64,000 nt of DNA from a bacterium SCSIO 12643 (GTDB lineage: Bacteria; Bacteroidota; Bacteroidia; Flavobacteriales_G; Salibacteraceae), in NCBI GenBank assembly GCA_024398135.1, contig CP073750.1, positions 1,054,001-1,118,000 on the forward strand. The letters are read 5' to 3'. The position numbers and the translations under genes are program-made. Below the pieces are notes generated by a model. That model worked only from the letters and a program-made list of their open reading frames with translations. It made no database searches and was not told the DNA's origin. This document shows positions 4,732-49,493 of the stretch, in pieces; position 1 is the first letter of the stretch; each line of letters opens with the position of its first letter.

Positions 4732-4738
4732 GTTATTG

Positions 4739-4812: not shown

Positions 4813-4928
4813 CTATTCCCTTTCCTCTTACCGATAAAAACCCTACCGAGATTTCCGGGATCTCAATAATTTTAAATAGCGAAAAGCGCAAATATCCAAC
4901 AGATATATAATTGTGTAGTACACTCTAA

Positions 4929-6453
<1,525 letters not shown>

Positions 6454-29976: not shown

Positions 29977-32900
29977 TTATTTCACAGCCATTCTATATAC
30001 TGCTGTTTCACCATCTAAGGTTACTTTGACGAAATAGATTCCTTGTGCTGCTCCTTCCAAGTTAATGGTTCTGTTTACTTCACCATTTACTTTTCCGTAA
30101 GACTGTACAAATACTTGTGATCCTCGTACATCTAGTACTTCTACTGACATATCCTTAGCCTCATCAGATTTTACATTTACTGTAAACACTCCTGCATTTG
30201 GATTTGGATATACAGAGATTAACGATGCTAACTCCACTTCAGATACACTTACTAACTGTCCTACTCTTACACAATCGTTTGTATAAGTGTTAGATCCACA
30301 GCTATTTGTTACAGTTAAAGTAACAACCATACAAGTACTATCTTCAATTGTCCAAGGATAAATGTGAATTGGATTTTCATCTGTAGAAGTTGATCCATCA
30401 CCGAAATCCCATAAGTATGAAGTTCCGTTTTGAGATGTATTTGTAAACACTACAGTAAAGTGAGATGAAGAATCAGCAAACGCAGCTACTGCATCTAAAA
30501 TCTCAGTTACATTCGTAGACGCTGAACTTACACAGTTTTGATCTGTTACAGTCACAGAATATGTACCTGGAGATGTTACTGATAAAGTTTGGTTTGTAGA
30601 ACCATCACTCCATAAGTAAGTTCCCTGCATGTTTGCATCTAATACAACGTTAGCACCTTGACAGAAGCTTGCGGAATCATCTAATACTACATCCATACTT
30701 TGTGTCACAATTGCAGTATCTGCAGATGCACAACCATGCATATCCACTACCTCAACATAAACAGTCATCGCAGAATCAACAGTTACAACTGAATCTGTAG
30801 AAGTATTTGAGTTCACATCGTTACTCCACATATAAGTACCACCAGAAATTCCAGTGTTTAATGTAGCTGAAGTACCCTCACATAAGTTCGTATCTCCTAC
30901 TACTGCTACTTGCTGTGGCATTACATCGAATACAGAAGTATCAGATCCACATTGATCGTATACTGCAACTTGTTGTGTACCTGGAGCTGTAATGTCATAC
31001 GTATTAGATGTATCAGTTGTATTCCATACTACAGTATCAAAATAATCTTGTTGTAAAGTCAACGTATCTCCGTTACACAATACCGGACTATTTGTAAATC
31101 CAAACTGAGATAATGGTAAGAACTCATCTGCACCAATACATGGAGGATCTTGTCTTACATCACCTTGATAATCCATAGCGTAAGCAGATAAATAAGTACC
31201 AACTCCCCATAAAGAATCGTTACATACTTTGAATGAAGAAGTATCACTAATTACATCATTCACATTCACTGAGTTTGAATCAAATCCAGTTCCAGTTACC
31301 CAGTCCGCTAATGTTGCATATGAAGTACCACTATAACCAATGTTACCACCATTTGGCGCACTGATATTGTTATAATCCATTTCATAAACACCAGAACCTG
31401 AGATATAAACAGCAGCACCAGAACCTCCATTAATGAAGATATTGTTTTTCACTTTGTTAAAACTACCACCAGTGAAATACAACGCTGGACTGAAGTTTGA
31501 AGTACTGTTCATATATACAGAGTTATGTGCAAACTCAACGAATAAACAGTTAGAAGCATAAATACCTCTACTTGCTGCTGGCTTTGGCATTACTACTCTG
31601 TTGTCTGTAACAGGCATAAATACATTTAAGTCTCCGGTCATACCTGTAAAGTATAAACCGTAACTTGGCCAAGAAGTATTACCATCAATATGGTTTCTTT
31701 GCACTTCTACTCTTACGTTTTGTCCGAAATACATTGCATAACCAAAGTTATAAGTTGTATTTGAAGTTGCATAGTTCTCGTTGAACATACCGTCTTCTTG
31801 ATAGTAGAAATAAGAAGATCTGTAATACTGATCCATAAAGTGGTTATTTTCTACCACATTATTTTTACAATAAGAACTGAAGTTACCATAGAAATATAAT
31901 CCATAGTTACCATTCATAATTGTATTGTTAGTTAAAGTCCAGTTGTCGTTACCTGGTCCATAAATATAAGAAGCATACTCATCAGAATCCCAAGTAGAAG
32001 TCGATGGCATACCAATCCATTTACAACCATCAATAGTAATGTGTGTATTACCACCTGAAGTGTTAGTTGTTACAACTCTAGAGTAACTTGCACCTAAGTT
32101 TTGTAATGTAATATCTTCAAAGCTGAAGTTTGAAGCTCCGTTGAAATTCAACACGTAGTTATCACCACTGTTAGTTGAAGAATAAGAAACAATAACACTA
32201 TCTACATTTCCTGATTGTGATCTAAAAGTCACATTATTAGCAGCAGACATACCGTTATATGATTCTAATTGGATTTGCTCTACATATGTTCCGTTCATTA
32301 CTTCAAACACAGTAGCTGCACAAATTCCGTAGTTACTCATTGCATTGATTGCATCAGCAAATGAAGTAAAGTCACCTGTAGCACCAATTGTATAAGTTCC
32401 TGAAAGAGAATTGTACACTGAAACATTTAATGTATCATTGATGTTGTTACTATCTGGAACTGCATTTGGCATTGAAGACCATACTACGATGTTATCTCCA
32501 TCATTTAATCCACCAGTAACCGTACCTAAAGTAACAGTATCCACTCCAAAAGAAGCCATGTTACCAGTCCAAGCATAAGCAGGCTGAACATTACCATTAA
32601 TTGTCCAGTTTACCGTAGCTGATGTCAGGTTGGCTGTACCAAAGTTTTTCAACTCCACTTTTACTACAGAATCCATAGCACAAGTTGGGAAAGTTGGATT
32701 TGTTAAAGCACCAATTGCTGCATCGTTAGCTAAAGGAGGACTAAACTCAAAACGGATATTTGGTCTTGCCATAAAGTCACTACCAAATCCACTACTACCA
32801 GTCATAGCACACCCTGTTTGACCATCTGCATATCTACCATAAACAGAGTTAAAAGTTGTTGCTGTATAGTTTACAGTACTGTTACTGTACCATGCACCAT

Positions 32901-33357
32901 TATCCCAACAAACCTCAATAACAATGTTTGATACACCATCCCAAGCAAATGGAGCTGAAAATGTAAACCCATTCCATCCTGTTGTTGCGGTGTGTGTACC
33001 AGAATACACATTAGTTAAACCAGTAGCATATGCGGTTAAAGATGTAGCTGTTGTATGCCCCATCTGAATATTGAATCCATTCATTGCATTTGAATTTGCT
33101 GTAGCTACATCAAATCCAATACTAAGAACACTACCTGCTCCACCTAAAGCTTGCAGTTCAGAAGCCAATACCAAGTATTGCGTTCTATTATCTTCGTAAT
33201 ATGTTCCAAATGGAGTCGGTAACGTTTGGAACGTTCCCGTTGTTGTCGTACCCGTACCCAGATACACATAGTTTTGCGCTGATACTTTTGTAAAGGCGGT
33301 ACCTAAAAATACCGCAAACAAAACCAGCATCGTTTTGTAAACGTAGTTTTTTCTCAT
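29977..33357 (-). CDS. T9SS-exported beta-helix surface protein, paralogue 1 (N-terminal type A)
   Basis: 1,126 residues. A signal peptide (1-28, ending VSAQ) is followed by a type A N-terminal domain (about 30-205) starting NYVYLGTGTT. Next comes a CARDB-like module (about 210-315, NDAAIGALTNPTFPTC). A parallel beta-helix spans about 320-745, rich in Asn and Tyr turns and ending QDPPCIGADEF. Ig-like Gly/Thr modules run to about 940, then a PKD domain (YLWDFGDGSTSTDENP). The type A sorting domain begins VYPNPNAGVFTV and ends TAVYRMAVK. It is presumably secreted through the outer membrane and attached or released; whether it binds polysaccharide or acts as an adhesin is not known. It has its own promoter and terminator. 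Confidence 0.85.
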   Translation of the reverse strand: MRKNYVYKTMLVLFAVFLGTAFTKVSAQNYVYLGTGTTTTGTFQTLPTPFGTYYEDNRTQYLVLASELQALGGAGSVLSIGFDVATANSNAMNGFNIQMGHTTATSLTAYATGLTNVYSGTHTATTGWNGFTFSAPFAWDGVSNIVIEVCWDNGAWYSNSTVNYTATTFNSVYGRYADGQTGCAMTGSSGFGSDFMARPNIRFEFSPPLANDAAIGALTNPTFPTCAMDSVVKVELKNFGTANLTSATVNWTINGNVQPAYAWTGNMASFGVDTVTLGTVTGGLNDGDNIVVWSSMPNAVPDSNNINDTLNVSVYNSLSGTYTIGATGDFTSFADAINAMSNYGICAATVFEVMNGTYVEQIQLESYNGMSAANNVTFRSQSGNVDSVIVSYSSTNSGDNYVLNFNGASNFSFEDITLQNLGASYSRVVTTNTSGGNTHITIDGCKWIGMPSTSTWDSDEYASYIYGPGNDNWTLTNNTIMNGNYGLYFYGNFSSYCKNNVVENNHFMDQYYRSSYFYYQEDGMFNENYATSNTTYNFGYAMYFGQNVRVEVQRNHIDGNTSWPSYGLYFTGMTGDLNVFMPVTDNRVVMPKPAASRGIYASNCLFVEFAHNSVYMNSTSNFSPALYFTGGSFNKVKNNIFINGGSGAAVYISGSGVYEMDYNNISAPNGGNIGYSGTSYATLADWVTGTGFDSNSVNVNDVISDTSSFKVCNDSLWGVGTYLSAYAMDYQGDVRQDPPCIGADEFLPLSQFGFTNSPVLCNGDTLTLQQDYFDTVVWNTTDTSNTYDITAPGTQQVAVYDQCGSDTSVFDVMPQQVAVVGDTNLCEGTSATLNTGISGGTYMWSNDVNSNTSTDSVVTVDSAMTVYVEVVDMHGCASADTAIVTQSMDVVLDDSASFCQGANVVLDANMQGTYLWSDGSTNQTLSVTSPGTYSVTVTDQNCVSSASTNVTEILDAVAAFADSSSHFTVVFTNTSQNGTSYLWDFGDGSTSTDENPIHIYPWTIEDSTCMVVTLTVTNSCGSNTYTNDCVRVGQLVSVSEVELASLISVYPNPNAGVFTVNVKSDEAKDMSVEVLDVRGSQVFVQSYGKVNGEVNRTINLEGAAQGIYFVKVTLDGETAVYRMAVK

Positions 33358-33389
33358 AAAATTTCTCTAAAATTGGTAAATAACGTCTC

Positions 33390-33419
33390 CAAATATATCG
33401 GTAATTATTTCTCATGCAA
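33390..33419 (-). promoter_or_regulatory. Promoter of T9SS paralogue 1
   Basis: TTG (33419-33417), 19 nt, TATATTTG (33397-33390) followed by GGAG on the minus strand. It lies about 33 nt before the start codon. Confidence 0.75.
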
Positions 33420-33536
33420 AATTTTTTTTAAAAAAAGCTTAATCTTACCCAACCCCCTATATTATTTATTCGTATCGCATACATTTTATTTTAAAACGGC
33501 AATTATCAATTTTAAAGAACTAAATACGCTTAAATC

Positions 33537-33570
33537 GAAAAGCCCGGGTGATATATCACCCGGGCTTTTA
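33537..33570. terminator. Terminator after T9SS paralogue 2
   Basis: 26-nt perfect palindrome (33541-33566, arm AGCCCGGGTGATA) flanked by A and T runs. Confidence 0.88.
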
Positions 33571-33592
33571 TAATTATTTTGGAAACTAATTA

Positions 33593-36500
33593 CTAGTTCA
33601 CGGAAATCCTATAAACTGCTGTTTCACCATCTAAAGTTACTTTAACAAAATAGATTCCTTGTGCTACTCCTTCCAGATTAACAGTTCTGTTTACCTCACC
33701 ATTTATTTTTCCGTAAGATTGTACAAATACCTGCGCCCCTCTTACATCCAGTACCTCAATCGACATATCCTTAGACTCATCAGATTTCACATTTACTGTA
33801 AAGATTCCAGCATTTGGATTTGGATATACAGAGATTAACGAGGCTAACTCAACTTCAGAAATACTTAACGGATTTACTGATTTCCCTACCTTTACACAAT
33901 AATCTGTATACGTAGCAGCCCCACAACTATTGGTCACTTCTAACGTCACAACGTAACATAGACTATCCTCATTTGTATTTGAAAAGGCGTGCGTTGGATT
34001 TTCGTATGTTGAGGTTGTCCCATCTCCAAAATTCCATAGATAAGAAACTCCATTTTGCGATGTATTTGTAAATACAGCTGTATAAAGTGAAGATGAAGTA
34101 CTAAACGAAGCTATAGCATTTAAAATTTCAGATACATTCGTAGACGCTGAACTTACACAGTTTTGATCTGTTACAGTCACAGAATATATACCAGGAGCTG
34201 TTACAGATAAAGTTTGGTTTGTTGAACCATCACTCCATAAGTAAGTTCCCTGCATGTTTGCATCTAATACCACATTTGCACCTTCGCAGAAACTTGCTGT
34301 ATCTGCCAACACCACATCCATACTTTGAGTTACAATTGCGGTATCCATAGAGCTACATCCATACATATCCACAACTTCAACGTATACGGTCATTGCAGAA
34401 TCAACAATTATCACTGAATCTGTCAATGTATTTGAATTCACATCGTTACTCCATAGATAAGTACCACCAGAAATCCCAGTGTTTAATGTAGCTGAAGTTC
34501 CCTCACATAAGTTGGTATCTCCTACTACTGCTACTTGCTGTGGCATTACATCGAATACAGAAGTATCAGATCCACATAAATCGTATACCGAAACTTGTTG
34601 CGTAGCCGGAGCGGTAATATCATACGTATTTGAAGTATCAGTTGCGTTCCATACTACTGTATCAAAATACTCTTGAACCAATGTTAAAGTATCTCCATTA
34701 CATAAAACCAAATCAGAGAATCCAAATTGTGAAGTCGGCATAAACTCATCCGCCCCGATACATGGAGGATCTTGCCTTACCTCACCTTGATAATCCATAG
34801 CGTAAGCAGATAAATAAGTACCTACTGCCCATAACGAATCGTTACATACTTTGAATGAAGAAGTATCACTAATTACATCATTCACATTCACTGAGTTTGA
34901 ATCAAATCCAATTCCGGTTACCCAATCTGATAATGTTGCATATGTAGTACCCCCCCTATAACCAATGTCACCTCCATTTGGCGCACTGATATTGTTATAA
35001 TCCATTTCATAAACACCTGAACCTGAGATATAAACAGCAGCACCAGAACCTCCATTAATGAAGATATTGTTTTTCACTTTGTTAAAACTACCACCAGAGA
35101 AATACAACGCTGAGTTAAAGGTTGAAGTACTGTTCATATATACAGAGTTATGTGCAAACTCAACGAATAACAAGTCAGAAGCATAAATACCTCTCCATGC
35201 GTTTGGCTTAGGCATAACCACTCTGTTATTATAAATTGATACAGATGCATTCAAATCTCCTTTTACACTCGCTAAATACAACCCGGTTGATGGCCAATTG
35301 ACAGTCCCTTCAACATGGTTATTAGAAATTTCAATTCTACGAGCCCCACCTATAAAGAAAGAACTACCACTAGGATGAGTTGAGTTAGATATAGCATGGT
35401 TTTCAGTAAACAAACCATCATCCTGATAGTAGAAATTTGCAGATATGTACCACTGATCAACAAACTCATTTCTTTCAATCACATTATTTTCCCCGTAATT
35501 TCCGTTAGTTCCATAAAAATACAACCCATAATTGCCATTTATAATAGTATTATTCCTAATCGTCCAATTATCATTACCTCCTCCATTGATATATGACACA
35601 TATTGATTACCGTTAGATCCATTAGTCGTTGGCATTCCAATCCACTTACATCCATCAATCGTAATATTCTTATTACCACCTGAAGCAGTAACTACTCTTG
35701 AGTATGAAGGTCCTAAGTTTTGAAAAGTCATATTCTCTACCAAAATATTAGAAACGTGATCAAATTTCAAAATATAGTTATCTGAACTTCCTGAGGAAAT
35801 ATATGATATGACCACACTATCTGCATTTCCGGATTGTGAACGGAAGGTTAAAGTATTCATAGAAGACATCCCTGGAAAAGTAGAAAGGTTTAATTGCTCC
35901 GTATAGGTTCCATTTACCGCTTCTACAATCAAATTTCCACAAACTCCATAGGCACTAAGGCTATTAATCGCATCTGTAAACGAAACGAAATCACCTGCTC
36001 CCGAAGGATCAATGGTGATTACACCACTATAACCCTGAGTGTACACCAACTGCGTAGAGTCATTGTATGTAGATGAATCCGTAACACCATTTGGCATTGA
36101 GGTCCACACATCTATGGTATCGCCAAAAGCGATATTTGAATTTGTACCTACAACAACAGTATCTAAATCATTTGTTGCTAAAGACCCCGTCCAGGAATAA
36201 GGCATTTGGAGATTACCATTAATTGACCAGTTGATTTGGGCAGAAGTCAGGTTTCCAGATCCATAGTTTTTCAATTCTACAGTAACGACAGAATCCAAAG
36301 TACATCCCGGAAGTTCAGGATTTAATACTGCAGTTAAACCAGAATTATTTACTAAATCAGAAAAAACCTCAATATCATCTAATGCAATATCGTTGAAATA
36401 TGGTGTGCTCCCATTTTGATTTACATTAAAACGGAATTTCGGAGGTCCACTGAAAGTGTATGCTGATAATGGGATAGAGAACTGTTCCCAATCTCGATTA

Positions 36501-36958
36501 GCCGTATTATTGGCAAATGTAAAAACTCCGGTATGCCAGGTTGCTCCGTCAAATACATCGACACTAAATGTATTAAAAGTGGTATTGTATCCTGTAATAT
36601 CACTTTTTAACCAAAAACGTAATTTTGGATTTATAAAACCATTTATATTCACAGTATCGGTTTCTAAAATTGAAATCAGATTGTTAGGAGAGGAACCATC
36701 AACCCAGGCAAACGAACCTCCATTCCCCGTATGATCTACTGTACCATTCATTGCAAAGCCAGGATGTCCACTGAGCCTCCATAATGCTTTATAACTTGTA
36801 TTACCTGTAGACGAGGTATTTGACCAACCCACAGGAACTGACGTATTATCAAATGTCTCGGTAAATGGCGGTGCAGAAACTGTCTGTGCAGAAACCGAAA
36901 ATCCCCAGGCTACCAAAACCAATAGCGCATAGATTTTTATTAAGTGATTTTTCCTCAT
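33593..36958 (-). CDS. T9SS-exported beta-helix surface protein, paralogue 2 (N-terminal type B)
   Basis: 1,121 residues. The signal peptide ends VSAQ (about 1-25). The N-terminal domain is type B: a MAM/jelly-roll-like domain of about 170 residues (FTETFDNTSVPVGWSN, LRFWLKSDITGY, FNDIALDDIEVFS). A CARDB-like module, beta-helix to PPCIGADEF, Ig-like modules, PKD (YLWNFGDGTTSTYENP) and a T9SS domain (VYPNPNAGIFTV) follow. Its N-terminal half is nearly the same as paralogue 4, while the late beta-helix is nearly identical to paralogue 1. This makes it a mosaic. The ligand is unknown. Confidence 0.85.
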   Translation of the reverse strand: MRKNHLIKIYALLVLVAWGFSVSAQTVSAPPFTETFDNTSVPVGWSNTSSTGNTSYKALWRLSGHPGFAMNGTVDHTGNGGSFAWVDGSSPNNLISILETDTVNINGFINPKLRFWLKSDITGYNTTFNTFSVDVFDGATWHTGVFTFANNTANRDWEQFSIPLSAYTFSGPPKFRFNVNQNGSTPYFNDIALDDIEVFSDLVNNSGLTAVLNPELPGCTLDSVVTVELKNYGSGNLTSAQINWSINGNLQMPYSWTGSLATNDLDTVVVGTNSNIAFGDTIDVWTSMPNGVTDSSTYNDSTQLVYTQGYSGVITIDPSGAGDFVSFTDAINSLSAYGVCGNLIVEAVNGTYTEQLNLSTFPGMSSMNTLTFRSQSGNADSVVISYISSGSSDNYILKFDHVSNILVENMTFQNLGPSYSRVVTASGGNKNITIDGCKWIGMPTTNGSNGNQYVSYINGGGNDNWTIRNNTIINGNYGLYFYGTNGNYGENNVIERNEFVDQWYISANFYYQDDGLFTENHAISNSTHPSGSSFFIGGARRIEISNNHVEGTVNWPSTGLYLASVKGDLNASVSIYNNRVVMPKPNAWRGIYASDLLFVEFAHNSVYMNSTSTFNSALYFSGGSFNKVKNNIFINGGSGAAVYISGSGVYEMDYNNISAPNGGDIGYRGGTTYATLSDWVTGIGFDSNSVNVNDVISDTSSFKVCNDSLWAVGTYLSAYAMDYQGEVRQDPPCIGADEFMPTSQFGFSDLVLCNGDTLTLVQEYFDTVVWNATDTSNTYDITAPATQQVSVYDLCGSDTSVFDVMPQQVAVVGDTNLCEGTSATLNTGISGGTYLWSNDVNSNTLTDSVIIVDSAMTVYVEVVDMYGCSSMDTAIVTQSMDVVLADTASFCEGANVVLDANMQGTYLWSDGSTNQTLSVTAPGIYSVTVTDQNCVSSASTNVSEILNAIASFSTSSSLYTAVFTNTSQNGVSYLWNFGDGTTSTYENPTHAFSNTNEDSLCYVVTLEVTNSCGAATYTDYCVKVGKSVNPLSISEVELASLISVYPNPNAGIFTVNVKSDESKDMSIEVLDVRGAQVFVQSYGKINGEVNRTVNLEGVAQGIYFVKVTLDGETAVYRISVN

Positions 36959-36990
36959 AATTTCTTTGATTTTAAGTTATACAATGAGGC

Positions 36991-37021
36991 CAAATATATT
37001 TCTCCACAATGAGCGAAGCAA
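36991..37021 (-). promoter_or_regulatory. Promoter of T9SS paralogue 2
   Basis: TTG (37021-37019), 20 nt, TATATTTG (36998-36991) followed by GG on the minus strand. It lies 33 nt before the start codon. Confidence 0.75.
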
Positions 37022-37277
37022 AGCAACAGCAAATCACAAACACCTTAAAAACAACACTTTAATGCTCGTGTATAGTTAAAATAAGGTTGAGTCAAATACA
37101 TATCCCACCTCTTTCTCAACCTTTTTCAACGATTCGTTCTTATCACATTAAGTATTTGTTTGGATTTCATTCTTGATGGGTTATAAAGTGTATGCAAAAA
37201 CACTTCTCGTTTCAAGGCAAATCCATCAATTTTAGAATAAACCATCCATAAGGTCATCTTACCAAAAGTTATTAAAC

Positions 37278-37308
37278 AAAAAAGCCCGAAGGATGAATCC
37301 CCCGGGCT
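37278..37308 (-). terminator. Terminator after T9SS paralogue 3
   Basis: Stem AGCCCG/CGGGCT (37283-37288 with 37303-37308) plus an inner GGA/TCC pairing. On the minus strand it is followed by T residues. Confidence 0.75.
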
Positions 37309-37334
37309 CTTACAATTATTTTGGAAACCAGTGA

Positions 37335-40300
37335 CTAGTTCACTGAAATTCTATAAACTGCTGTTTCACCATCTAAGGTTACTTTAACAAAATAGATTCC
37401 TTGTGCTACTCCTTCCAGGTTAACAGTTCTGTTTACTTCACCATTAACTTTTCCGTAAGACTGCACAAACACTTGAGCACCTCTGATATCCAGCACCTCT
37501 ATTGCCATATCCTTAGCCTCATCAGATTTTACATTTACTGTAAATACTCCTTCGTTAGGATTTGGATATACTGAAATTAATGAAGCTAACTCTACCTCAG
37601 AAACACCAACCATAACTCCTATTCTTACACAATCATCAGTATAAGTATGAGAACCACAACTATTCGTCACGGTTAATGTTACCACTTTACAAATACTATC
37701 TTGATTTGTCCATGGGTAAATATGAGTTGGATTTTCTTCTGTAGACGTTGTTCCATCACCGAAATCCCATAGGTAAGATGTACCATTTTGAGATGTATTT
37801 GTAAATTGAACAGCTAAATATGATGAAGAACTATTAAATGATGCCACCGCATCCAAGATTTCTGTCACAAATGTAGAAGCTGAACTTACACAGTTTTGAT
37901 CTGTTACAGTTACTGAATAAGATCCAGGAGAGGTTACTGATAAAGTTTGGTTTGTTGAACCATCACTCCATAAGTACGTCCCTTGCATGTTTGCATCTAA
38001 TACCACATTCGCACCTTCACAGAAGGTAGCCGAATCATCCAATACTACATCCATACTTTGAGTTACAATAGCTGTATCCATAGAACTACATCCATGCATA
38101 TCCACTACCTCAACATATACGGTCATTGCTGTATCAACAACTACAACTGAATCTGTAGACGTATCAGAATTTAAGTCATTACTCCACATATAAGTACCAC
38201 CAGAAATTCCAGTGTTTAATGTAGCCGTAGTTCCTTCACATAAATTGGTATCTCCTACTACTGCAACTTGTTGTGGCATTACCGTGAATACTGAGGTATC
38301 AGACCCACATAAATCATATACCGCTACTTGTTGAGAACCTGGAGCAGTAATATCATAGGTATTTGTTGTATCTGTAGTATTCCATACCACAGTATCAAAA
38401 TAATCCTGTACCAGAGTTAATGTATCACCATCACATAATACAGGACTATCATTAAATCCGAACTCAGAGATTGGCATAAACTCATCCGCACCAATACATG
38501 GAGGATCTTGACGCATATCGCCTTCATAATCCACCATATAAGTAGCTAAATATGTTCCAACACCATATAATGAATCATTACATACTTTAAATGTTGCGGT
38601 ATCGCTGATCACATCGTTTACATTTACTGAATTCGAATCAAATCCAGTAGCTGCAATCCAATCGGATAAAGTAGTATAACCTGTACCTGAAGTATAACCT
38701 ACATCCCCTCCATTTGGAGTACTTAAATTGTTATTATCCATTTCATATACACCTGATCCAGCTACATAAATTGCAGAACCAGTACCTCCGTTAATGAAGA
38801 TATTGTTTTTCACTTTGTTGAAACTTCCATCATCAAATTCCAATGCAGCGTCAGTACCTGAAGAACTATTCATATAAACTGAATTATGCGCCAACTCCAC
38901 AAATAGACTATTATATGACCTAATTCCATAATCCGCATTTGATTTCTTCATTACCACACGGTTATTCGTTATAGGTAAGAACGTATTCAAATCACCAGTC
39001 ATACCAGAAAAATATATCCCTTGATCTGGCCAGGTTGCGTTCCCTTTAACATGGTTATTACTTACCTCGAATCTGGTATTTTCTACAAAATAGAATCCAT
39101 ATGAAAAAGAAAGCGTAGAAGTTGACGTTACTTCATTACCAATAAATTCTCCATCCATTTGATAATAGATATATGCACCAGTATAATATTGATCAATAAA
39201 TGTATTATTCCTAACCACGTTATTCATTCCGTTGGTATTGAAATCTCCATCTAAATATAAACCATAGTTACCATCGATAATTGTATTATTTGTAATCGTC
39301 CAATTATCTTTTCCAGGACCATCAATATACGAAACAGCTTGCTCATCATCCCAAGATGATGTAGAAGGTACTCCTTTCCACACACAACCGTCAATTTTGA
39401 TATCTGTACTAGAATTATTTACAGCCGTAACAACTCTTGAATAACCAGCACCTAAATTTTGCATTGTAATATTTTCAATATTAAAATAAGACGCACCGTT
39501 AAAATTAACCACATAATTATCAGAAGATCCAGTAGCTGAATACGACAAAGTTACCATACTGGCATCTCCGGATTGAGATCTAAATGTCACATTATTTGCC
39601 ATGGACATTCCATCATAAGTTGTAAGGTTTATTTGTTCAACATAAGTACCATTCGCTACTTCGAAAACAGTTGCTGCACAAATACCGAAATCAATCATAT
39701 CACTAATCGCTGCTGCAAAACTCACATAATCACCCGCACCAGACGCATCAATGGTATATGTTCCGGACAATGAAGTATGTACCATAACAGCTAATGTATC
39801 ATTAATGTTATTACTGTCTAATACTCCATTTGGCATTGAAGACCATACCACAATATTATCTCCATCATTTAAACCACCAGTAACCACACCAAGGGTTAAA
39901 GTATCCTTATCAAAAGATGCTAAGTTTCCTGTCCATGCGTTAGCTGGCTGAATATTTCCGTTAACAGACCAGTTCACTGTTGCAGAAGTTAAATTTGAAG
40001 TTCCATAATTAATCAATTCAACTTGCACGTTAGAATCCATTGCACAAGTAGGAAATGATGGATTAATTAATGCGCCAGTAGCAGCATCATTTGCCAATGG
40101 TGGAGTAAACTCTAAACGCATATTTGGTCTATACGTTTGCTGAGCTCCAGTTGATGTATTACCGTTAGTCATTGAACATCCGGAATTTCCATCATCATAT
40201 CTACCATACACAGAATTGAATGAAGTGGCTGTATATCTAACGAAGCTGTTATCAAACCACGCTCCGTTATCAAAACAAACTTCTACAACAACATTTGACA

Positions 40301-40721
40301 CACCATCCCATGCAAATGGAGCAGTAAATGTAAAGTTATTCCATCCAGAAGTCGCCACATGGCTACCAGAATACACATTCGTCAAACCTGAAACAAAACC
40401 AGAAAGAGATGTTGCTGTAGTATGACCGATCTTAATATTAAACCCATTCATTGTTGCAGCGTCCGGTTGTGAGACATCGAACGCTAAACCTAATACACTT
40501 CCAGAAGCTCCCAAAGCTTGCAATTCAGATGCTAAAATCAGATATGACGTTCTACCATCCTCATAATATGTTCCAAATGGGGTTGGCATTGTTTGGTAAG
40601 TAGTGGTTGCTGTAGTCGCAGTACCGACATACAGATAGTTTTGGGCTGATAATTCTTGCAATGACAGCCCCAAGAATGCTATCATTACTATCACCCAATT
40701 AAAAAGATAATTTTTCCTCAT
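37335..40721 (-). CDS. T9SS-exported beta-helix surface protein, paralogue 3 (N-terminal type A)
   Basis: 1,128 residues with the same plan as paralogue 1. A signal peptide (ending LSAQ) is followed by the type A N-terminal domain (NYLYVGTATT, TPFGTYYEDGRTSYLILASELQ), a CARDB-like module, the beta-helix, Ig-like modules, PKD (YLWDFGDGTTSTEENP) and a T9SS domain (VYPNPNEGVFTV ending TAVYRISVN). Its region SEFGFNDSPVLCDGDTLTL is shared with paralogue 5 and not with its type A partner. It has its own promoter and terminator. Confidence 0.85.
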   Translation of the reverse strand: MRKNYLFNWVIVMIAFLGLSLQELSAQNYLYVGTATTATTTYQTMPTPFGTYYEDGRTSYLILASELQALGASGSVLGLAFDVSQPDAATMNGFNIKIGHTTATSLSGFVSGLTNVYSGSHVATSGWNNFTFTAPFAWDGVSNVVVEVCFDNGAWFDNSFVRYTATSFNSVYGRYDDGNSGCSMTNGNTSTGAQQTYRPNMRLEFTPPLANDAATGALINPSFPTCAMDSNVQVELINYGTSNLTSATVNWSVNGNIQPANAWTGNLASFDKDTLTLGVVTGGLNDGDNIVVWSSMPNGVLDSNNINDTLAVMVHTSLSGTYTIDASGAGDYVSFAAAISDMIDFGICAATVFEVANGTYVEQINLTTYDGMSMANNVTFRSQSGDASMVTLSYSATGSSDNYVVNFNGASYFNIENITMQNLGAGYSRVVTAVNNSSTDIKIDGCVWKGVPSTSSWDDEQAVSYIDGPGKDNWTITNNTIIDGNYGLYLDGDFNTNGMNNVVRNNTFIDQYYTGAYIYYQMDGEFIGNEVTSTSTLSFSYGFYFVENTRFEVSNNHVKGNATWPDQGIYFSGMTGDLNTFLPITNNRVVMKKSNADYGIRSYNSLFVELAHNSVYMNSSSGTDAALEFDDGSFNKVKNNIFINGGTGSAIYVAGSGVYEMDNNNLSTPNGGDVGYTSGTGYTTLSDWIAATGFDSNSVNVNDVISDTATFKVCNDSLYGVGTYLATYMVDYEGDMRQDPPCIGADEFMPISEFGFNDSPVLCDGDTLTLVQDYFDTVVWNTTDTTNTYDITAPGSQQVAVYDLCGSDTSVFTVMPQQVAVVGDTNLCEGTTATLNTGISGGTYMWSNDLNSDTSTDSVVVVDTAMTVYVEVVDMHGCSSMDTAIVTQSMDVVLDDSATFCEGANVVLDANMQGTYLWSDGSTNQTLSVTSPGSYSVTVTDQNCVSSASTFVTEILDAVASFNSSSSYLAVQFTNTSQNGTSYLWDFGDGTTSTEENPTHIYPWTNQDSICKVVTLTVTNSCGSHTYTDDCVRIGVMVGVSEVELASLISVYPNPNEGVFTVNVKSDEAKDMAIEVLDIRGAQVFVQSYGKVNGEVNRTVNLEGVAQGIYFVKVTLDGETAVYRISVN

Positions 40722-40757
40722 AATCGATATATAATATTAAATAGTTAACTAATGACC

Positions 40758-40788
40758 CAAATATATTCTTTAAGAGTATTTATTCCAA
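40758..40788 (-). promoter_or_regulatory. Promoter of T9SS paralogue 3
   Basis: TTG (40788-40786), 20 nt, TATATTTG (40765-40758) followed by GG on the minus strand. It lies 37 nt before the start codon. Confidence 0.75.
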
Positions 40789-40808
40789 CTTTTTTATTTC
40801 ACATAAAA

Positions 40809-40845
40809 AAGAAAAAGCCCCGATAGTGTAAACTATCGGGGCTTT
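40809..40845 (-). terminator. Terminator after T9SS paralogue 4
   Basis: Fourteen-base-pair stem AAAGCCCCGATAGT (40814-40827 with 40832-40845), loop GTAA, and a T-rich tail on the minus strand. Confidence 0.9.
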
Positions 40846-40869
40846 CATAAATGAATTATTTATTTAAAC

Positions 40870-43800
40870 CTATTTCACAGAAACTCTGTACACTGCAGTT
40901 TCACCATCTAAGGTTACTTTAACAAAATAGATTCCTTGTGCTGCTCCTTCCAAGTTAATGGTTCTGTTTACTTCACCATTTACTTTTCCGTAAGACTGTA
41001 CAAATACCTGAGCACCTCTGATATCAAGTACTTGTACTGACATTTCCTTAGCCTCATCAGATTTTACATTTACTGTAAAAATTCCAGCATTTGGATTTGG
41101 ATATACAGAGATTAATGATGCTAACTCCACTTCAGACACACTTACCAACTGACCTACTCTTACACAATCATTGGTATAAGTATGAGATCCACAGCTATTT
41201 GTTACAGTTAATTTTACCACATAACAAATACTATCTTCATTAGTCCATGGATAAATATGCGTTGGATTCTCCTCTGTTGATGTTGTTCCATCACCGAATT
41301 CCCATAAGTAAGATGTTCCGTTCTGAGATGCGTTAGTAAACACTACAGTATAGAATGAAGATGAATCAGAGAAAGAGGCTACAGCATCTAATATTTCTGA
41401 CACATAAGATGAAGCTGAACTTACACAGTTTTGATCTGTTACAGTTACTGAATAAGATCCTGGAGAGGTTACTGATAAAGTTTGGTTTGTTGAACCATCA
41501 CTCCATAAGTAAGTTCCTTGCATGTTTGCATCTAATACCACATTAGCTCCCTCACAGAAACTTGCCGAATCATCTAACACAACATCCATACTTTGCGTCA
41601 CTACAGCTGTATCCATAGAACTACACCCATGCATATCCACTACTTCAACATAAACAGTCATGGCAGTATCTACAACAACAACTGAATCGGTAGATGTATC
41701 AGCGTTTAGGTCATTACTCCACATATATGTACCACCAGAAATTCCAGTGTTTAATGTGGCAGAAGTTCCCTCACATAAGTTCGTATCTCCTACAGTGGCT
41801 ACCTGCTGTGGCATTACTGTGAACACAGATGTATCTGATCCACATAAATCATATACAGCCACTTGTTGCGTACCAGGAGCGGTAATATCATAAGTGTTTG
41901 AAGTATCTGTTGTATTCCATACTACAGTATCAAAATAATCCTGTACCAGAGTTAATGTATCTCCACTACATAAAACCGGACTATTTGTAAATCCAAATTG
42001 AGAAATTGGCATAAACTCATCTGCTCCAATACATGGAGGATCTTGCCTCACATCTCCCTCATAGTCTACAGCATACATTGGCATTGCTGTACCCACATTC
42101 CATAACGAATCATTACATACTTTAAATGAAGCAGTATCGCTCATTACATTATTTACGTTCACAGAATTTGAATCTAATTGTGTTGCAGCAACCCAATCAG
42201 TTAAGGTAGCTTGATTAGAACCGTTATAACCAATATTACCTCCGTTTGGCGCACTTAAGTTATTATAATCCATTTCATAGATTCCAGATCCCGACATGTA
42301 AACTGCAGCTCCAGAACCTCCATTGATGAAAATATTATTTTTTACAGTGTTAAAACTACCACCCGTAAAGTATAAAGCTCCATAAGAAGTTGAACTACTA
42401 TTCATGTAAACCGAATTATGAGCTACTTCCACAAACAAACAACTTGATGCATATATTCCATAATAACCGCTTGATTTTGGCATTATAATTCGGTTATTAT
42501 AAACAGGCAAAAATGTATTTAAGTCACCAGTTACAGATGTTAAATACAATCCATATCTCGGCCAATTTGCGTTTCCTTCAATATGGTTGTTAGAGATTTC
42601 AGTTCTTAGAGTCTGCCCAATATAGAATGAATAACCAGAGTTATAAGTTGTATTTGAAGTTGCATGATTTCCTGTAAACATACCGTCTTCTTGATAATAG
42701 AAATACGCAGATCTATAATACTGATCCATGAATTCATTATTTTCAACTATATTGTTTTTACCATTAGCACTAAAGTTTCCATAAAGATACAAACCGTAGT
42801 TACCATTCATAATCGTATTATTTACAATCGTCCAATTATCATTACCTGGACCATAGATGTATGAAACATATTCATCAGAATCCCATGTTGATGTTGAAGG
42901 CATACCTACCCACTTACATCCATCAATAGTAATATTTGTATTTCCACCCGAAGTTGGAGTGGTTACTACTCTTGAATAATCTGCTCCTAAATTTTGAAGC
43001 GTCATATTGGCAATCGTAATATATGAAGCTTCATCAAAGTTCAAAATATAGTTATCTGCACTTCCAGTAGCTGAATATGAAATAATCACACTATCCGCAT
43101 TTCCAGACTGAGAACGGAAGGTTAAAGTATTCATAGAAGACATACCTGGAAAAGTAGAAAGATTTAACTGTTCTACATAAGTTCCGTTTACTGCCTCAAC
43201 AATCAAACTACCACATACACCGTAGATATCAATATTATTAATCGCATCTGTAAATGAAACGAAATCACCTGCTCCAGAAGGATCAATAGTCATTACACCA
43301 CTGTAACCTTGAATATACTCCAATTGTGTAGAATCATTGTACGCAGCCGAATCCATAATACCATTTGGCATAGAGGTCCATACATCAATAATATCACCAA
43401 AAGCAATATTTGAATTTGTACCTACAGTAACAGTATCTAAATCGCTTGTCGCCAAAGATCCCGTCCAGGAATAAGGCATTTGGAGATTACCATTAATTGA
43501 CCAGTTGATTTGAGCAGAAGTCAGGTTTCCCGATCCATAATTTTTCAACTCTACTGTAACCACAGAGTCTAAAGTACAACCTGGAAGTTCTGGATTTAAC
43601 ACTGCTGTTAAACCTGCATTATTCACTAAATCAGAAAAAATCTCAACGTCATCTAAAGCGATATCATTCCAGTAAGGTGTCCCTCCTGTTTGATCTACAT
43701 TAAAACGAAATTTAGCAGGTCCACTAAAAGTGTATGCTGATAAAGAAACAGAGAATTGTTCCCAATCTTGATTAGCCGTATTATTAGCAAATGTAAATGC

Positions 43801-44214
43801 TCCGGTATGCCAGGTAGCTCCGTCAAATACATCTACACTAAATGTATTAAAAGTGGTATTGTATCCTGTAATATCACTTTTTAACCAAAAACGTAATTCA
43901 GGATTCACAACACCAGTCATATTCACGTTATCGGTTTCTAAAATTGAAGTCAGATTGTTAGGAGTAGAACCGTCAACCCAGGCATAAGAACCACCATTTC
44001 CAGTATGATCAGATGTACCACTCATCGCGTAATCCGGATCGCCATCAAATTTCCACAATGCATTGGTACTTGTACTACCTGTAGATGAAGTATTTGACCA
44101 CCCCACAGGCATAGTTGTGTTATCAAATGTTTCTGTATACTGAGCAGAAACGGAAAGTCCACACGCTGTTAACACCCCCAGCATGAGGCTTTTAATCGGA
44201 TAATTTTTACTCAT
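40870..44214 (-). CDS. T9SS-exported beta-helix surface protein, paralogue 4 (N-terminal type B)
   Basis: 1,114 residues. The signal peptide ends VSAQ (about 1-25). The type B N-terminal domain (YTETFDNTTMPVGWSN, LRFWLKSDITGY, YWNDIALDDVEIFS) is almost the same as in paralogue 2. A CARDB-like module (NPELPGCTLDSVVTVEL), beta-helix, Ig-like modules, PKD (YLWEFGDGTTSTEENP) and a T9SS domain ending TAVYRVSVK follow. The end of the protein is nearly identical to paralogue 5. It has its own promoter and terminator. Confidence 0.85.
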   Translation of the reverse strand: MSKNYPIKSLMLGVLTACGLSVSAQYTETFDNTTMPVGWSNTSSTGSTSTNALWKFDGDPDYAMSGTSDHTGNGGSYAWVDGSTPNNLTSILETDNVNMTGVVNPELRFWLKSDITGYNTTFNTFSVDVFDGATWHTGAFTFANNTANQDWEQFSVSLSAYTFSGPAKFRFNVDQTGGTPYWNDIALDDVEIFSDLVNNAGLTAVLNPELPGCTLDSVVTVELKNYGSGNLTSAQINWSINGNLQMPYSWTGSLATSDLDTVTVGTNSNIAFGDIIDVWTSMPNGIMDSAAYNDSTQLEYIQGYSGVMTIDPSGAGDFVSFTDAINNIDIYGVCGSLIVEAVNGTYVEQLNLSTFPGMSSMNTLTFRSQSGNADSVIISYSATGSADNYILNFDEASYITIANMTLQNLGADYSRVVTTPTSGGNTNITIDGCKWVGMPSTSTWDSDEYVSYIYGPGNDNWTIVNNTIMNGNYGLYLYGNFSANGKNNIVENNEFMDQYYRSAYFYYQEDGMFTGNHATSNTTYNSGYSFYIGQTLRTEISNNHIEGNANWPRYGLYLTSVTGDLNTFLPVYNNRIIMPKSSGYYGIYASSCLFVEVAHNSVYMNSSSTSYGALYFTGGSFNTVKNNIFINGGSGAAVYMSGSGIYEMDYNNLSAPNGGNIGYNGSNQATLTDWVAATQLDSNSVNVNNVMSDTASFKVCNDSLWNVGTAMPMYAVDYEGDVRQDPPCIGADEFMPISQFGFTNSPVLCSGDTLTLVQDYFDTVVWNTTDTSNTYDITAPGTQQVAVYDLCGSDTSVFTVMPQQVATVGDTNLCEGTSATLNTGISGGTYMWSNDLNADTSTDSVVVVDTAMTVYVEVVDMHGCSSMDTAVVTQSMDVVLDDSASFCEGANVVLDANMQGTYLWSDGSTNQTLSVTSPGSYSVTVTDQNCVSSASSYVSEILDAVASFSDSSSFYTVVFTNASQNGTSYLWEFGDGTTSTEENPTHIYPWTNEDSICYVVKLTVTNSCGSHTYTNDCVRVGQLVSVSEVELASLISVYPNPNAGIFTVNVKSDEAKEMSVQVLDIRGAQVFVQSYGKVNGEVNRTINLEGAAQGIYFVKVTLDGETAVYRVSVK

Positions 44215-44245
44215 AATTTATATTTGTGTTCACTAAATAAGCCCC

Positions 44246-44275
44246 CAAATATATCCGATATAACTACTTACACAA
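44246..44275 (-). promoter_or_regulatory. Promoter of T9SS paralogue 4
   Basis: TTG (44275-44273), 19 nt, TATATTTG (44253-44246) followed by GGGG on the minus strand. It lies 32 nt before the start codon. Confidence 0.75.
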
Positions 44276-44290
44276 AGTTTTTTTTGCTTC

Positions 44291-44328
44291 AAAAAAAAGA
44301 GCCATGGCAACAATTGTCACCACGGCTC
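44291..44328 (-). terminator. Terminator after T9SS paralogue 5
   Basis: Outer stem GAGCC/GGCTC (44299-44303 with 44324-44328) plus TGG/CCA and a partly paired interior. It is followed on the minus strand by eight T residues. Confidence 0.75.
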
Positions 44329-44354
44329 CTACCAATTTAGTATATTGATTTGGT

Positions 44355-47300
44355 TTATTTCACAGACACTCTATAAACTGCTGTTTCACCATCTAAGGTT
44401 ACTTTAACAAAATAGATTCCTTGTGCTGCTCCTTCCAAGTTAATGGTTCTGTTTACTTCACCATTTACTTTTCCGTAAGACTGTACAAATACCTGAGCAC
44501 CTCTGATATCAAGTACTTGTACTGACATATCTTTAGCCTCATCAGATTTTACATTTACTGTAAAGATTCCAGCATTTGGATTCGGATACACAGAGATTAA
44601 TGATGCTAGCTCCACTTCAGATACGCTTACCATCACACCCACTCTTACACAATCGTTTGTATAAGTGTGAGATCCACAGCTATTTGTTACAGTTAATGTC
44701 ACCACATAACAAATACTATCTTCATTGGTCCATGGGTATACATGAACTGGATTTTCATCTGTAGAAGTTGTTCCATCACCGAAATCCCATAAGTATGAAG
44801 TTCCGTTTTGAGACGTATTTGTAAACGCTACAGTATAGAATGAAGATGAATCAGAGAATGCAGCTACTGCATCTAAAATCTCAGTTACATTCGTAGACGC
44901 TGAACTTACACAGTTTTGATCTGTTACAGTTACTGAATAAGACCCAGGAGATGTTACTGATAAAGTTTGGTTTGTTGAACCATCACTCCATAAGTAAGTC
45001 CCTTGCATGTTTGCATCTAATACCACATTAGCTCCTTCACAGAAACTTGCTGAATCATCTAGTACCACATCAAAACTTTGAGTCACAATAGCTGTATCCA
45101 TAGAACTACATCCATGCATATCCACTACTTCAACATAAACAGTCATCGCAGTATCCACTACTACAACTGAATCTGTAGATGTATCAGAGTTTAAGTCATT
45201 ACTCCACATATAAGTACCACCAGAAATTCCAGTATTTAATGTTGCAGAAGTTCCTTCACATAAGTTAGTATCTCCAACTACTGCTACTTGTTGCGCCAGT
45301 ACATCGAATACAGAAGTATCAGATCCACATTGATCATATACCGCAACTTGTTGTGTACCAGGAGCGGTAATATCATAAGTGTTTGAAGTATCTGTTGTAT
45401 TCCATACTACAGTATCAAAATAATCTTGTTGTAATGTTAAAGTATCACCATCACATAATACAGGATTATCATTAAATCCGAACTCAGAGATTGGCATGAA
45501 TTCATCTGCACCAATACATGGAGGATCTTGTCGCATATCTCCTTCAAAATCCATTGAGTATGCAGGCATATACATACCTACTCCGTAAAGAGAATCATTA
45601 CACACCTTAAAAGTAGCTGTATCACTCATTACATTATTTACATTCACAGAATTTGAATCAAAACCTGTTGCCGCAACCCAATCAGTCAATGTCGCTTGAG
45701 CAGAACCATTATAACCAATCACACCACCATTAGGGGCACTTAAATTATTATAATCCATTTCATATACACCAGAACCTGAAATATACATAGCCGATCCTGT
45801 TCCTCCATTGATCAGGATATTATTCTTAACAGAGTTAAAACTACCACCAGTGAAATACAACGCTGGACTGAAGTTTGAAGTACTGTTCATATAAACTGAG
45901 TTATGCGCAAACTCTACAAATAACCAGTTAGACGCGTATACACCTCTTGACGCATTCGGTCTTGGCATAACCACTCTATTATTCACTACAGGCATAAATG
46001 TATTTAGATCACCTGTAAGGTTGATCATATACATACCATATCTTGGCCAAACATTTGTACCGTCAATGTGATTATTTGTAATCTGAGTTCTACTATGTCC
46101 ACTCAAGTACATTGCGTACCCACTAGTATAGGTAGAAGTAGAAGCTACATAGTTATTATCAAATATCGCATCTTCTTGATAGTAGAAGTGAATACCTCTA
46201 TAACGTTGATCGATACACTCATTGTTAGCAATAACAGTATTCTTGTTATAATTTGAGAAGTTACCATAGAAGTAAATTCCATAACTACCATTAATAAACT
46301 GGTTATTGGTAATTGTCCAGTTATCATTATCCGCACCATAGATATACGTCAAACTTCTTAATGTAGAAGTCGAAGTTGTTGTACTTGCTTTAATAATACA
46401 GTTGTTAATGGTATTATCATGGCTACCTCCAGAAGTTGGTGTAGTCAATACGCGCAAATAAGTTGACCCAAGGTTTTCCATGGTAATATCTTCAAACGTA
46501 AAATAAGAAGCACCATTAAAGTTTACCACATAATTATCAGCTGATCCGGTTGCTGCGTACGATAAAATTACGCTATCCGCATCTCCAGCCTGAGATCTAA
46601 ATGTTACATTATTTGTACTGGACATACCTGTGTAAGAACCTAATTCAATTTGCTCTACATAAGTATTACTTAATACCTCAAATACTGTTGGACCACATAG
46701 CCCATATGCATCCATAGCGTTAACCGCATCTGTAAAAGTGGTATAATCTCCACCTGTACCAATAGTATATGTACCATTTAATGCAGGTTCAAATACTCCA
46801 GACGCAGTATCATTACTGGTATCCGTATCCTGAACCCCATTTGGCCATTTTGTCCAAACAGTAATGTTCGTTGCTCCAGCAGGCATAGTTAAAGTATCCA
46901 AGGTAACTATTGTATCCGTTGCACCAGTACCTCCAAAAGTATCTAATGGTGCAATAAACCATGCTGAATCCATAACACTGTTCACATCCCAAACAACCAT
47001 AAAGCTGTCTACCTGATTTGTTCCGAAGTTAGACACTTTCACGCTAATAGAATCAAAACCACCGGCACAATAAACTCCCGGAGTTTCAATTGAAGATAAA
47101 CTAACGTTATCTGGCGAAGTACTTGCTGGCACATAAGTTACACTACCATTAAATTGTCTTGTACTAAATGTAGGATTTGGAATTGAACCTCCATATCCAA
47201 CACCAGGACCTGTTTCAATAGTTGTAAACGCATCTGTAAAAGTACTTTGATTAGACGAGTTGTAAGTCGTATATACTACCGATGAAGACGCTCCTCCAAC

Positions 47301-47705
47301 GTAAAACCCATAAGTTCCAGGACCCAATACTAATGGCGTATTTAATGTCAAACTTGAAACTACAGGTGTTAAACCTATTGATTGACCTGTCACAGTACCA
47401 GATTGAATCATCGTCCAACCATTTGCTGCTGAAATTGTAGGTGGTCCACTAATAGGCGTTGTGCTATACCAAATCTCGTACGGTTGCGTACTACTTTGGA
47501 AAGCCTGACCAATTTCAGTAACGATAATTGGTGCAGTAACGGTCAGGTTGAACGTACTACCTCCTGATCCATTTCCACCATTTAACGGTGGAACCGTAGA
47601 ATTGACAAACTGCCCGTTCACTGTAATCGTTGCACTCACGAAAAACAGGGTTAACATGGCAGCTATCGTTAAAAAATTCTTTTTACGAAGTAAAATTTTT
47701 CTCAT
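44355..47705 (-). CDS. T9SS-exported beta-helix surface protein, paralogue 5 (N-terminal type C)
   Basis: 1,116 residues. The signal peptide is longer (about 1-31, ending VNGQ). The N-terminal domain (about 32-200: PPLNGGNGSGGSTFNLTV, YGFYVGGASS) is unlike types A and B. A diverged CARDB-like module (SSIETPGVYCAGGFDSISVKV) leads into the same beta-helix, Ig-like, PKD and T9SS modules as the other four. It is the first gene in the direction of transcription. Its upstream region lacks the TATATTTG promoter of the others; only TATTTTAG was seen. Confidence 0.85.
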   Translation of the reverse strand: MRKILLRKKNFLTIAAMLTLFFVSATITVNGQFVNSTVPPLNGGNGSGGSTFNLTVTAPIIVTEIGQAFQSSTQPYEIWYSTTPISGPPTISAANGWTMIQSGTVTGQSIGLTPVVSSLTLNTPLVLGPGTYGFYVGGASSSVVYTTYNSSNQSTFTDAFTTIETGPGVGYGGSIPNPTFSTRQFNGSVTYVPASTSPDNVSLSSIETPGVYCAGGFDSISVKVSNFGTNQVDSFMVVWDVNSVMDSAWFIAPLDTFGGTGATDTIVTLDTLTMPAGATNITVWTKWPNGVQDTDTSNDTASGVFEPALNGTYTIGTGGDYTTFTDAVNAMDAYGLCGPTVFEVLSNTYVEQIELGSYTGMSSTNNVTFRSQAGDADSVILSYAATGSADNYVVNFNGASYFTFEDITMENLGSTYLRVLTTPTSGGSHDNTINNCIIKASTTTSTSTLRSLTYIYGADNDNWTITNNQFINGSYGIYFYGNFSNYNKNTVIANNECIDQRYRGIHFYYQEDAIFDNNYVASTSTYTSGYAMYLSGHSRTQITNNHIDGTNVWPRYGMYMINLTGDLNTFMPVVNNRVVMPRPNASRGVYASNWLFVEFAHNSVYMNSTSNFSPALYFTGGSFNSVKNNILINGGTGSAMYISGSGVYEMDYNNLSAPNGGVIGYNGSAQATLTDWVAATGFDSNSVNVNNVMSDTATFKVCNDSLYGVGMYMPAYSMDFEGDMRQDPPCIGADEFMPISEFGFNDNPVLCDGDTLTLQQDYFDTVVWNTTDTSNTYDITAPGTQQVAVYDQCGSDTSVFDVLAQQVAVVGDTNLCEGTSATLNTGISGGTYMWSNDLNSDTSTDSVVVVDTAMTVYVEVVDMHGCSSMDTAIVTQSFDVVLDDSASFCEGANVVLDANMQGTYLWSDGSTNQTLSVTSPGSYSVTVTDQNCVSSASTNVTEILDAVAAFSDSSSFYTVAFTNTSQNGTSYLWDFGDGTTSTDENPVHVYPWTNEDSICYVVTLTVTNSCGSHTYTNDCVRVGVMVSVSEVELASLISVYPNPNAGIFTVNVKSDEAKDMSVQVLDIRGAQVFVQSYGKVNGEVNRTINLEGAAQGIYFVKVTLDGETAVYRVSVK

Positions 47706-49361: not shown

Positions 49362-49404
49362 CCAATTTTGTTTTTTGACTTTATTTAGACGAAAGGGTCG
49401 TGCG

Positions 49405-49460
49405 GCTTACAATTTAGCATTTTTTACTGTGGTTGCAAGCGTTCAAATCCTTCCACCGTG
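49405..49460 (-). ncRNA. SAM-II-like riboswitch aptamer in the metK leader
   Basis: On the minus strand, a P1 stem GTGG (49456-49453) pairs with CCAC (49432-49429). Its loop carries GATTT and CTTGCA, and GCTAAA (49418-49413) follows after an A-rich linker. These are the conserved elements I know from SAM-II aptamers. A possible pseudoknot pairs GCTTGC (49440-49435) with GTAAGC (49410-49405). The position, 3' of a promoter and 5' of the SAM synthetase gene, supports a SAM sensor. P1 is short (four pairs) with extra bases before GATTT, so covariance-model confirmation is the open point. Confidence 0.75.
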
Positions 49461-49493
49461 CAAATGTAATTTTTTTATATTAGCATTTGTCAA
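49461..49493 (-). promoter_or_regulatory. Promoter of metK and its riboswitch leader
   Basis: TTG (49493-49491), 22 nt, TACATTTG (49468-49461) on the minus strand. It places the transcript start right at the 5' edge of the aptamer. Confidence 0.65.

Follow-up and report, generated by a model that had tools for sequence, protein, structure and literature searches.

Unrelated N-terminal heads on a locally shared stalk in a tandem array of predicted type IX secretion cargos

Among the cargos of the type IX secretion system (T9SS), the KLIKK proteases of Tannerella forsythia provide a precedent for different N-terminal domains carried on a shared tail within one gene cluster, and it should be mentioned that the words "recombination", "duplication" and "tandem" do not occur in the main text of the paper describing them (PMC4404884). 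RgpA/Kgp and HagA of Porphyromonas gingivalis are likewise T9SS cargos with common C-terminal adhesin modules and different N-terminal domains, and their description reports combinatorial modularity, extensive recombination and repeats that are identical both inside a gene and from gene to gene (PMC5266723). Here we describe an array of five genes, g1A to g5C, in a 64,000-nucleotide stretch of DNA (the window; positions 1,054,001 to 1,118,000 of contig CP073750.1, assembly GCA_024398135.1) from bacterium SCSIO 12643 of the Salibacteraceae, which resembles the KLIKK cluster in that different N-terminal domains, in the following called heads, stand on a shared T9SS tail. It differs from that cluster in that the KLIKK proteins carry protease domains whereas no protease family was matched in the five array proteins at an E-value of 0.01, and in that the shared part here comprises ~900 residues; an analysis of recombination and phylogeny is furthermore added. 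The gingipains and HagA differ from the array by their cleaved-adhesin domains and catalytic N-termini, no catalytic domain being recognised in the array proteins, and the array in turn differs by homogenisation that is local to tandem genes and by a common body, the chassis, that spans genera. Polymorphic toxins combine a constant N-terminus with a variable C-terminal toxin and are the reverse of the array, where the N-terminus varies and the sorting tail is C-terminal. In searches of the open literature, judged by titles and the beginnings of abstracts, we recognised no description of this array or of tails homogenised array by array.

We find that the head types are common to several genera, that the stalks beneath them are alike within the window's own genome and within several relatives, and that the individual genes are mosaics. 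The locus is probably a tandem array of T9SS-exported surface display proteins, in which shared head types are mounted on one chassis and the stalk is homogenised locally by recombination. The five genes are complete minus-strand open reading frames (ORFs) of 1,114-1,128 amino acids in a head-to-tail row between der and metK, and the order of their heads along the direction of transcription is C, B, A, B, A. Genes were assigned from ORFs, Pfam matches and alignment, and together with their leader and head segments they are as follows.

29977..33357, minus strand: g1A, T9SS cargo with head type A, 1,126 amino acids
33593..36958, minus strand: g2B, T9SS cargo with head type B, 1,121 amino acids
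37335..40721, minus strand: g3A, T9SS cargo with head type A, 1,128 amino acids
40870..44214, minus strand: g4B, T9SS cargo with head type B, 1,114 amino acids
44355..47705, minus strand: g5C, T9SS cargo with head type C, 1,116 amino acids
32734..33357, minus strand: leader and head A of g1A; no Pfam or NCBIfam head family
36350..36958, minus strand: leader and head B of g2B; MAM-like at 16.6 bits, below cut-off
40089..40721, minus strand: leader and head A of g3A
43630..44214, minus strand: leader and head B of g4B; MAM at 25.4 bits against a cut-off of 26.4
47118..47705, minus strand: leader and head C of g5C; no Pfam or NCBIfam head family

Each protein consists, from the N- to the C-terminus, of a leader, a head, a linker domain, a beta-helix, an immunoglobulin-like (Ig) region, a PKD domain and a T9SS type A sorting tail, with leader and head together amounting to 195-211 residues. 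Por_Secre_tail (PF18962/TIGR04183) and PKD_4 are found above cut-off in all five proteins and Beta_helix in four, the match in g1A falling below it, while Ig_7 was matched in four of the five and always below cut-off. The N-termini are hydrophobic as judged by eye, and the linker domain looks CARDB-like by eye and has no Pfam match; it is 42-55% identical between A- and B-headed proteins and 17-36% identical between the C-headed protein and either. From alignment column 780 onward all ten gene pairs are 70-100% identical in protein windows, whereas over the first 210 columns pairs that differ in head type are 5-41% identical, and when the profiles of head families A, B and C were compared with one another, only the leader or a few residues aligned. 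An earlier reading made from the sequence alone had claimed five adjacent same-strand genes of 1,114-1,128 codons with shared beta-helix, Ig-like, PKD and sorting modules and three unrelated N-terminal types, and it is borne out on the gene row and, at the level of sequence, on the heads, and on the modules with the stated reservation for the Ig matches; the linker domain and the mosaic make-up of the genes had escaped it.

The B heads appear to lie near the MAM and choice-of-anchor J domains (PF00629, NF038128), with a B-type head of the relative G013 passing NF038128 (32.2 bits, cut-off 30) and the MAM match of g4B lying just under its cut-off, while NF038128 gave no match in g4B up to an E-value of 10. 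Pfam and NCBIfam gave no family for two A and two C heads from relatives. When heads A and C were modelled from two-sequence alignments, the mean predicted local distance difference test (pLDDT) scores were 50 and 55, which is too poor for the models to be used in a fold search. Against profiles of solved structures head A had no match, head C had best matches of only E 0.075 and 0.43, and head B had a weak match to the BambL lectin (E 0.06) that is not used as evidence; a profile of the whole protein (13 sequences) matched solved structures through the PKD region only.

The same chassis is widespread in relatives. Sixty related genomes were searched with g4B and 12 candidates were scored in each, so that copy numbers are lower bounds; 37 stretches around the listed matches were taken, two of them from the window's own genome, and an ORF was counted as a chassis member only if both linker and helix matched. 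Of 67 heads taken, one of just 8 residues was left without a type, and the head types are single-linkage clusters. At least 66 typed members were found in at least 25 genomes, the window's included, at least 17 genomes having two or more members and at least 15 two or more head types, and in several relatives two to four chassis genes follow one another in arrays. Members are rather uniform in length: among 59 complete ORFs, 44 are shorter than 1,200 amino acids and 41 of those measure 1,090-1,160. Head A occurs in at least 11 genomes, B in at least 4, C in at least 7 and a further type, T0, in at least 12; the one T0 member scanned matches GEVED (PF20009) at 1.9e-21, and this frequent head of relatives is not among the three types of the window. 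A 470-residue head, T2, and head types confined to single genomes are also present. An extra block of ~250 residues stands between head and linker in the B and C heads of G019 (L076) and in the A head of G033 (L098:1959-6158), and is a further exchangeable module. One chassis copy in the array of G026 (L087:14507-17947) is broken by several stops and shows as two ORFs.

That heads and stalks have different histories is seen when modules are compared within and between genomes. For copies with the same head type in different genomes, identity averages 39.9% in the head and 34.6% in the helix (n=285), the head being the more conserved in 219 of the 285 pairs, whereas copies with different heads in the same genome average 27.6% for the head against 54.0% for the helix (n=64), and their Ig regions 66.4% (n=57). 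The head of g5C, for instance, is 64% identical to its counterpart in G012 and the helix 39%. In the per-module comparison, from which the one row without a head type was left out, unlike-headed copies of the same genome (n=52) share 39% in the linker, 65% in the first Ig repeat and 51% in the tail, whereas between genomes each module averages 28-38%; the five tails of the window array are 91% identical among themselves and 32.5% identical to the far copy in their own genome and the copy in G002. The constant stalk under a variable tip that the sequence-only reading had described therefore holds within a genome and is mostly reversed between genomes. In a stalk tree of 63 rows, which omits 4 short rows, the genome label requires 29 changes (minimum 24; shuffled mean 51.7, none of 200 shuffles as low) and the head label 32, and approximately unbiased (AU) tests on 20 rows from eight genomes, run without a mixture model and excluding two long branches of G015 (L099), rejected stalk clades by head type for C (1.4e-88), A (1.5e-12) and B (1.5e-87), values whose extreme smallness partly reflects recombination inside rows. 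Stalk modules are accordingly on average more alike within a genome than between same-type copies of different genomes, as is the mark of concerted evolution, with the exceptions of G011, G013, G018 and G025 and of the tails of G004, G007, G012 and G015. In G027 five 30-codon blocks are 98-100% identical in nucleotides and are flanked by blocks of 71-80% before and 74-83% after, and a pair with unrelated heads in G030 reaches 86-100% over the last ~300 codons.

Within the window array, identity likewise switches partner along the genes. Given as protein and DNA identity and in the numbering of g1A, g2B and g4B share 96/91% in the linker and drop to 64/69% near residue 674, where g1A and g2B share 89/93%, while g1A and g4B reach 90/80% near residue 434. 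An identity run beats all 2,000 shuffles in seven of the ten gene pairs, the pairs g1A-g3A, g2B-g3A and g3A-g4B having none beyond all permutations, in a test that assumes no variation in constraint along the gene. One such tract is the following.

31153..31602, minus strand: recombination tract in g1A, amino acids 586-735, 92.8% identical to g2B in nucleotides, where the remainder of the shared region stands at 74.4%

Between g1A and g2B the first half of the helix has a synonymous divergence (dS) of 1.70 and the second half one of 0.39, and exact runs of up to 146 nt are shared within the array. The module phylogenies that the sequence-only reading had recommended fall in with this in part, in that seven segment trees of the array genes differ from one another, many of their nodes being weak.

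The pattern extends beyond the window array. The window's own genome (G000) is a single contig of 4.12 Mb, in which 150 sorting tails lie above cut-off among the 150 of 287 candidates that were scored, and in G013, also a single contig, 150 of 332 candidates were scored; the neighbour pairs, defined as sorting-tail genes on the same strand within 10 kb, are consequently a subset, and one tail in each genome is without an ORF in the census. With thresholds of our own setting (60% tail identity; an N-terminal score below 60 as unrelated, the 99th percentile of non-neighbours being 59), 20 of 44 neighbour pairs of the own genome reach the tail threshold, compared with 2 of 2,048 non-neighbour pairs, and both of the latter stem from one duplicated two-gene block. 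This T9SS block at G000:C1:291524 has its second copy ~3.7 Mb away at 4013307, with tails that are 89% and 79% identical. Shared tails combined with unrelated N-termini are found in 11 of the 44 neighbour pairs, in five arrays (7 of 40 without the window array); 12 had been flagged initially, and one was dropped because a 125-residue ORF in it proved to be the 3' fragment of a broken gene. The gene in question (L120:6181-7458, G000) appears as ORFs of 274 and 125 amino acids that are 93% and 97% like a neighbour of 446 amino acids.

In two of these arrays, C1:1510447-1533865 and C1:2005551-2009720, dS is 0.09-0.14 over the last 300 codons and identity fades upstream, while the DNA past the stop codons looks unrelated by eye. 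The former (G000:C1:1510447-1533865; L115, L116) holds three T9SS genes of 2,494, 1,642 and 1,487 amino acids with unrelated N-termini, their tails being 100% identical over 80 residues and the last 300 codons 97-98% identical in DNA, and the latter (G000:C1:2005551-2009720; L118) holds two adjacent T9SS genes with identical tails and unrelated N-termini. Six consecutive small T9SS genes (269-310 amino acids) with shared tails and at least two kinds of N-terminus are found at G000:C1:352781-358158 (L114). Between seven hand-picked arrays and one single copy in the own genome the tails are only 18-40% identical, and the sharing of tails is therefore local.

These observations would be explained if homologous recombination between neighbours, by gene conversion and occasional unequal crossover, keeps overwriting the stalk DNA, here up to the stop codon. 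Conversion would be limited to DNA that is already homologous and would thus stop at the unrelated head in one direction and at the diverged flank in the other, so that the heads would be spared because they lack mutual homology and one body would be kept under several unrelated tips.

Several points weigh against this explanation, among them the assumption of uniform constraint behind the permutation test and the mostly weak support of the segment trees. The helix is at least as conserved as the head in 66 of the 285 cross-genome pairs, type T2 follows the rule in only 17 of 48, and the T2-headed stalks of G027, G029 and G030 cluster across genomes. Unlike-headed copies are not homogenised in G013 (24-29% per module) and G018 (20-33%), the two copies of G011, G018 and G025 are separate stalk lineages in the 63-row tree, and in G004, G007, G012 and G015 the tails are just 31-36% identical though the other modules are alike. 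In G013, furthermore, tails are shared in 3 of 33 neighbour pairs, each time under related N-termini, and a shared tail under unrelated heads is found in 0 of the 33, which differs from the own genome with p 0.0018 (11 of 44) or p 0.014 (7 of 40). Homogenisation is, in short, lineage-dependent and does not always reach the tail. Within the array itself, whole-stalk trees still join g1A with g3A (85/84) and g2B with g4B (100/100) as sisters, and in the Ig and tail modules dS is 0.17-0.86 in the pairs computed and non-synonymous divergence (dN) much lower, so that selection also holds the stalk. Finally, the exchange may have overwritten the stalk, or it may have swapped in the head.

It is possible, though we think it rather doubtful, that the heads were instead gained horizontally and recombined onto a resident stalk. 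The differing histories of heads and stalks would be in agreement with this notion, and so would the DNA upstream of the genes, which is alike in the way that a two-sided swap would leave it: the pairs that beat all 300 shuffles, g1A-g4B, g3A-g4B, g2B-g3A and barely g2B-g5C, are all unlike-headed, while the like-headed pairs g1A-g3A and g2B-g4B are equalled in 1 and 37 of 300 shuffles. The head trees however need no transfer: the C heads of the own genome and its congener G001 form a clade (98/98) and the AU test allows the A heads of genus g1 to be united in a single clade (p-AU 0.345), and transfer of heads between genera is thus unsupported by these trees, which are small (10, 13 and 6 rows) and compatible with vertical descent.

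That one gene, or a two-gene B-A unit as the sequence-only reading had suggested, was recently duplicated in tandem, with fast N-terminal divergence and no exchange between the copies thereafter, is improbable. The same-strand tandem order, the single clade formed by the five array stalks (95/99) and the sister relations of the A pair and the B pair would all be expected from it, but it is contradicted by other genera, in which this chassis also bears heads A, B and C, and by identity tracts that switch partner along the gene. A copied B-A unit should furthermore make the 3' flanks pair like the heads, and instead the DNA 3' of the stop codon is clearly homologous only for the unlike-headed g2B and g3A (score 59, 0 of 300 shuffles), the next-best pair being g4B-g5C (11 of 300). 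The sorting tails likewise pair g4B with g5C (76/76) and g2B with g3A (70/58), if with weak support, and the dS of the heads is 0.58 in the B pair and 1.21 in the A pair. The alternation itself is weak evidence, since A and B alternate with C at either end in 4 of the 30 possible orders of two A, two B and one C. As a sufficient account a single duplication of a B-A unit is therefore ruled out by flank pairing, head dS and mosaic identity, and what remains of the suggestion is the whole-stalk sisterhood of the two pairs, which appears to speak for some duplication event; duplication followed by exchange is possible.

Purifying selection alone, holding stalk and tail alike while the heads diverge freely, is also quite unlikely to be the explanation. 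The low dN relative to dS noted above is what it would predict, and the dS values of the window array are not themselves close to zero, but it fails to explain why the shared blocks of the two other own-genome arrays stand at dS just 0.09-0.14, why the same modules are so dissimilar between genomes and the tails so dissimilar between arrays of one genome, or why G027 has blocks of 100% DNA identity between flanks that have diverged. If the locus were one of programmed surface variation, with recombination switching the displayed head, it could make use of the long exact runs and of unrelated heads on a common body, but this is very improbable, since the five copies are all complete and on one strand, four of them have the same promoter-like motif, and no Pfam recombinase family is found among the ten neighbouring ORFs (two of them without any match), the rest of the genome not having been searched.

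The array is flanked by the following genes, both confirmed by Pfam.

28572..29876, plus strand: der (EngA) GTPase, array flank
48014..49288, minus strand: metK, opposite array flank

The same position is occupied in some relatives. In G005 one B-headed chassis gene sits between der and metK, in G012 the chassis adjoins der on one contig and metK on another, in G008 it adjoins der, and in G019 it adjoins metK, der being next to other ORFs; in G015 and G044 der and metK are close together without an array. The der-metK gap of the congener G001 holds a different protein of 2,116 amino acids with a local B-head-like stretch (L102:4938-11288). Elsewhere in the window a SAM-II riboswitch lies upstream of metK (49404-49462, minus strand) and an rRNA operon with tRNA-Ile and tRNA-Ala in its spacer at 1389-6453 (minus strand).

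Four of the array genes are preceded by a TAnnTTTG motif, which may be a -7 element.

33390..33397, minus strand: TATATTTG, candidate -7 element of g1A, 32 bp before the start codon
36991..36998, minus strand: TATATTTG, candidate -7 element of g2B, 32 bp before the start codon
40758..40765, minus strand: TATATTTG, candidate -7 element of g3A, 36 bp before the start codon
44246..44253, minus strand: TATATTTG, candidate -7 element of g4B, 31 bp before the start codon

The background of TAnnTTTG in the window is 0.48 per kb per strand, and g5C has only TAAATTTG at a distance of 114 bp. A hairpin followed by a T run is seen by eye after each array stop codon, and with the motif on four of the five genes this makes separate transcripts likely; each gene would then be transcribed singly. 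The predicted route of the proteins is export by the T9SS followed by anchoring at the surface through the sorting-tail pathway, and the surface display proposed in the sequence-only reading is indeed their likely role, judging from the sorting tails on all five and from the T9SS machinery proteins SprA and GldM, which are found above cut-off in the own genome. The head would bind a glycan or protein ligand, and the rest of the protein would serve as a spacer.

We tentatively suggest that some Flavobacteriales may operate a genome-wide plug-in display, in which recombination would keep a tail and stalk cassette interchangeable within each array while new heads are spliced on, giving strain-specific combinations. 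With its 150 or more T9SS sorting tails, the bacterium illustrates through this array how several unrelated heads can be carried on one export-ready body, and gene trees or annotation derived from the C-terminal half of such proteins tell little about the head.

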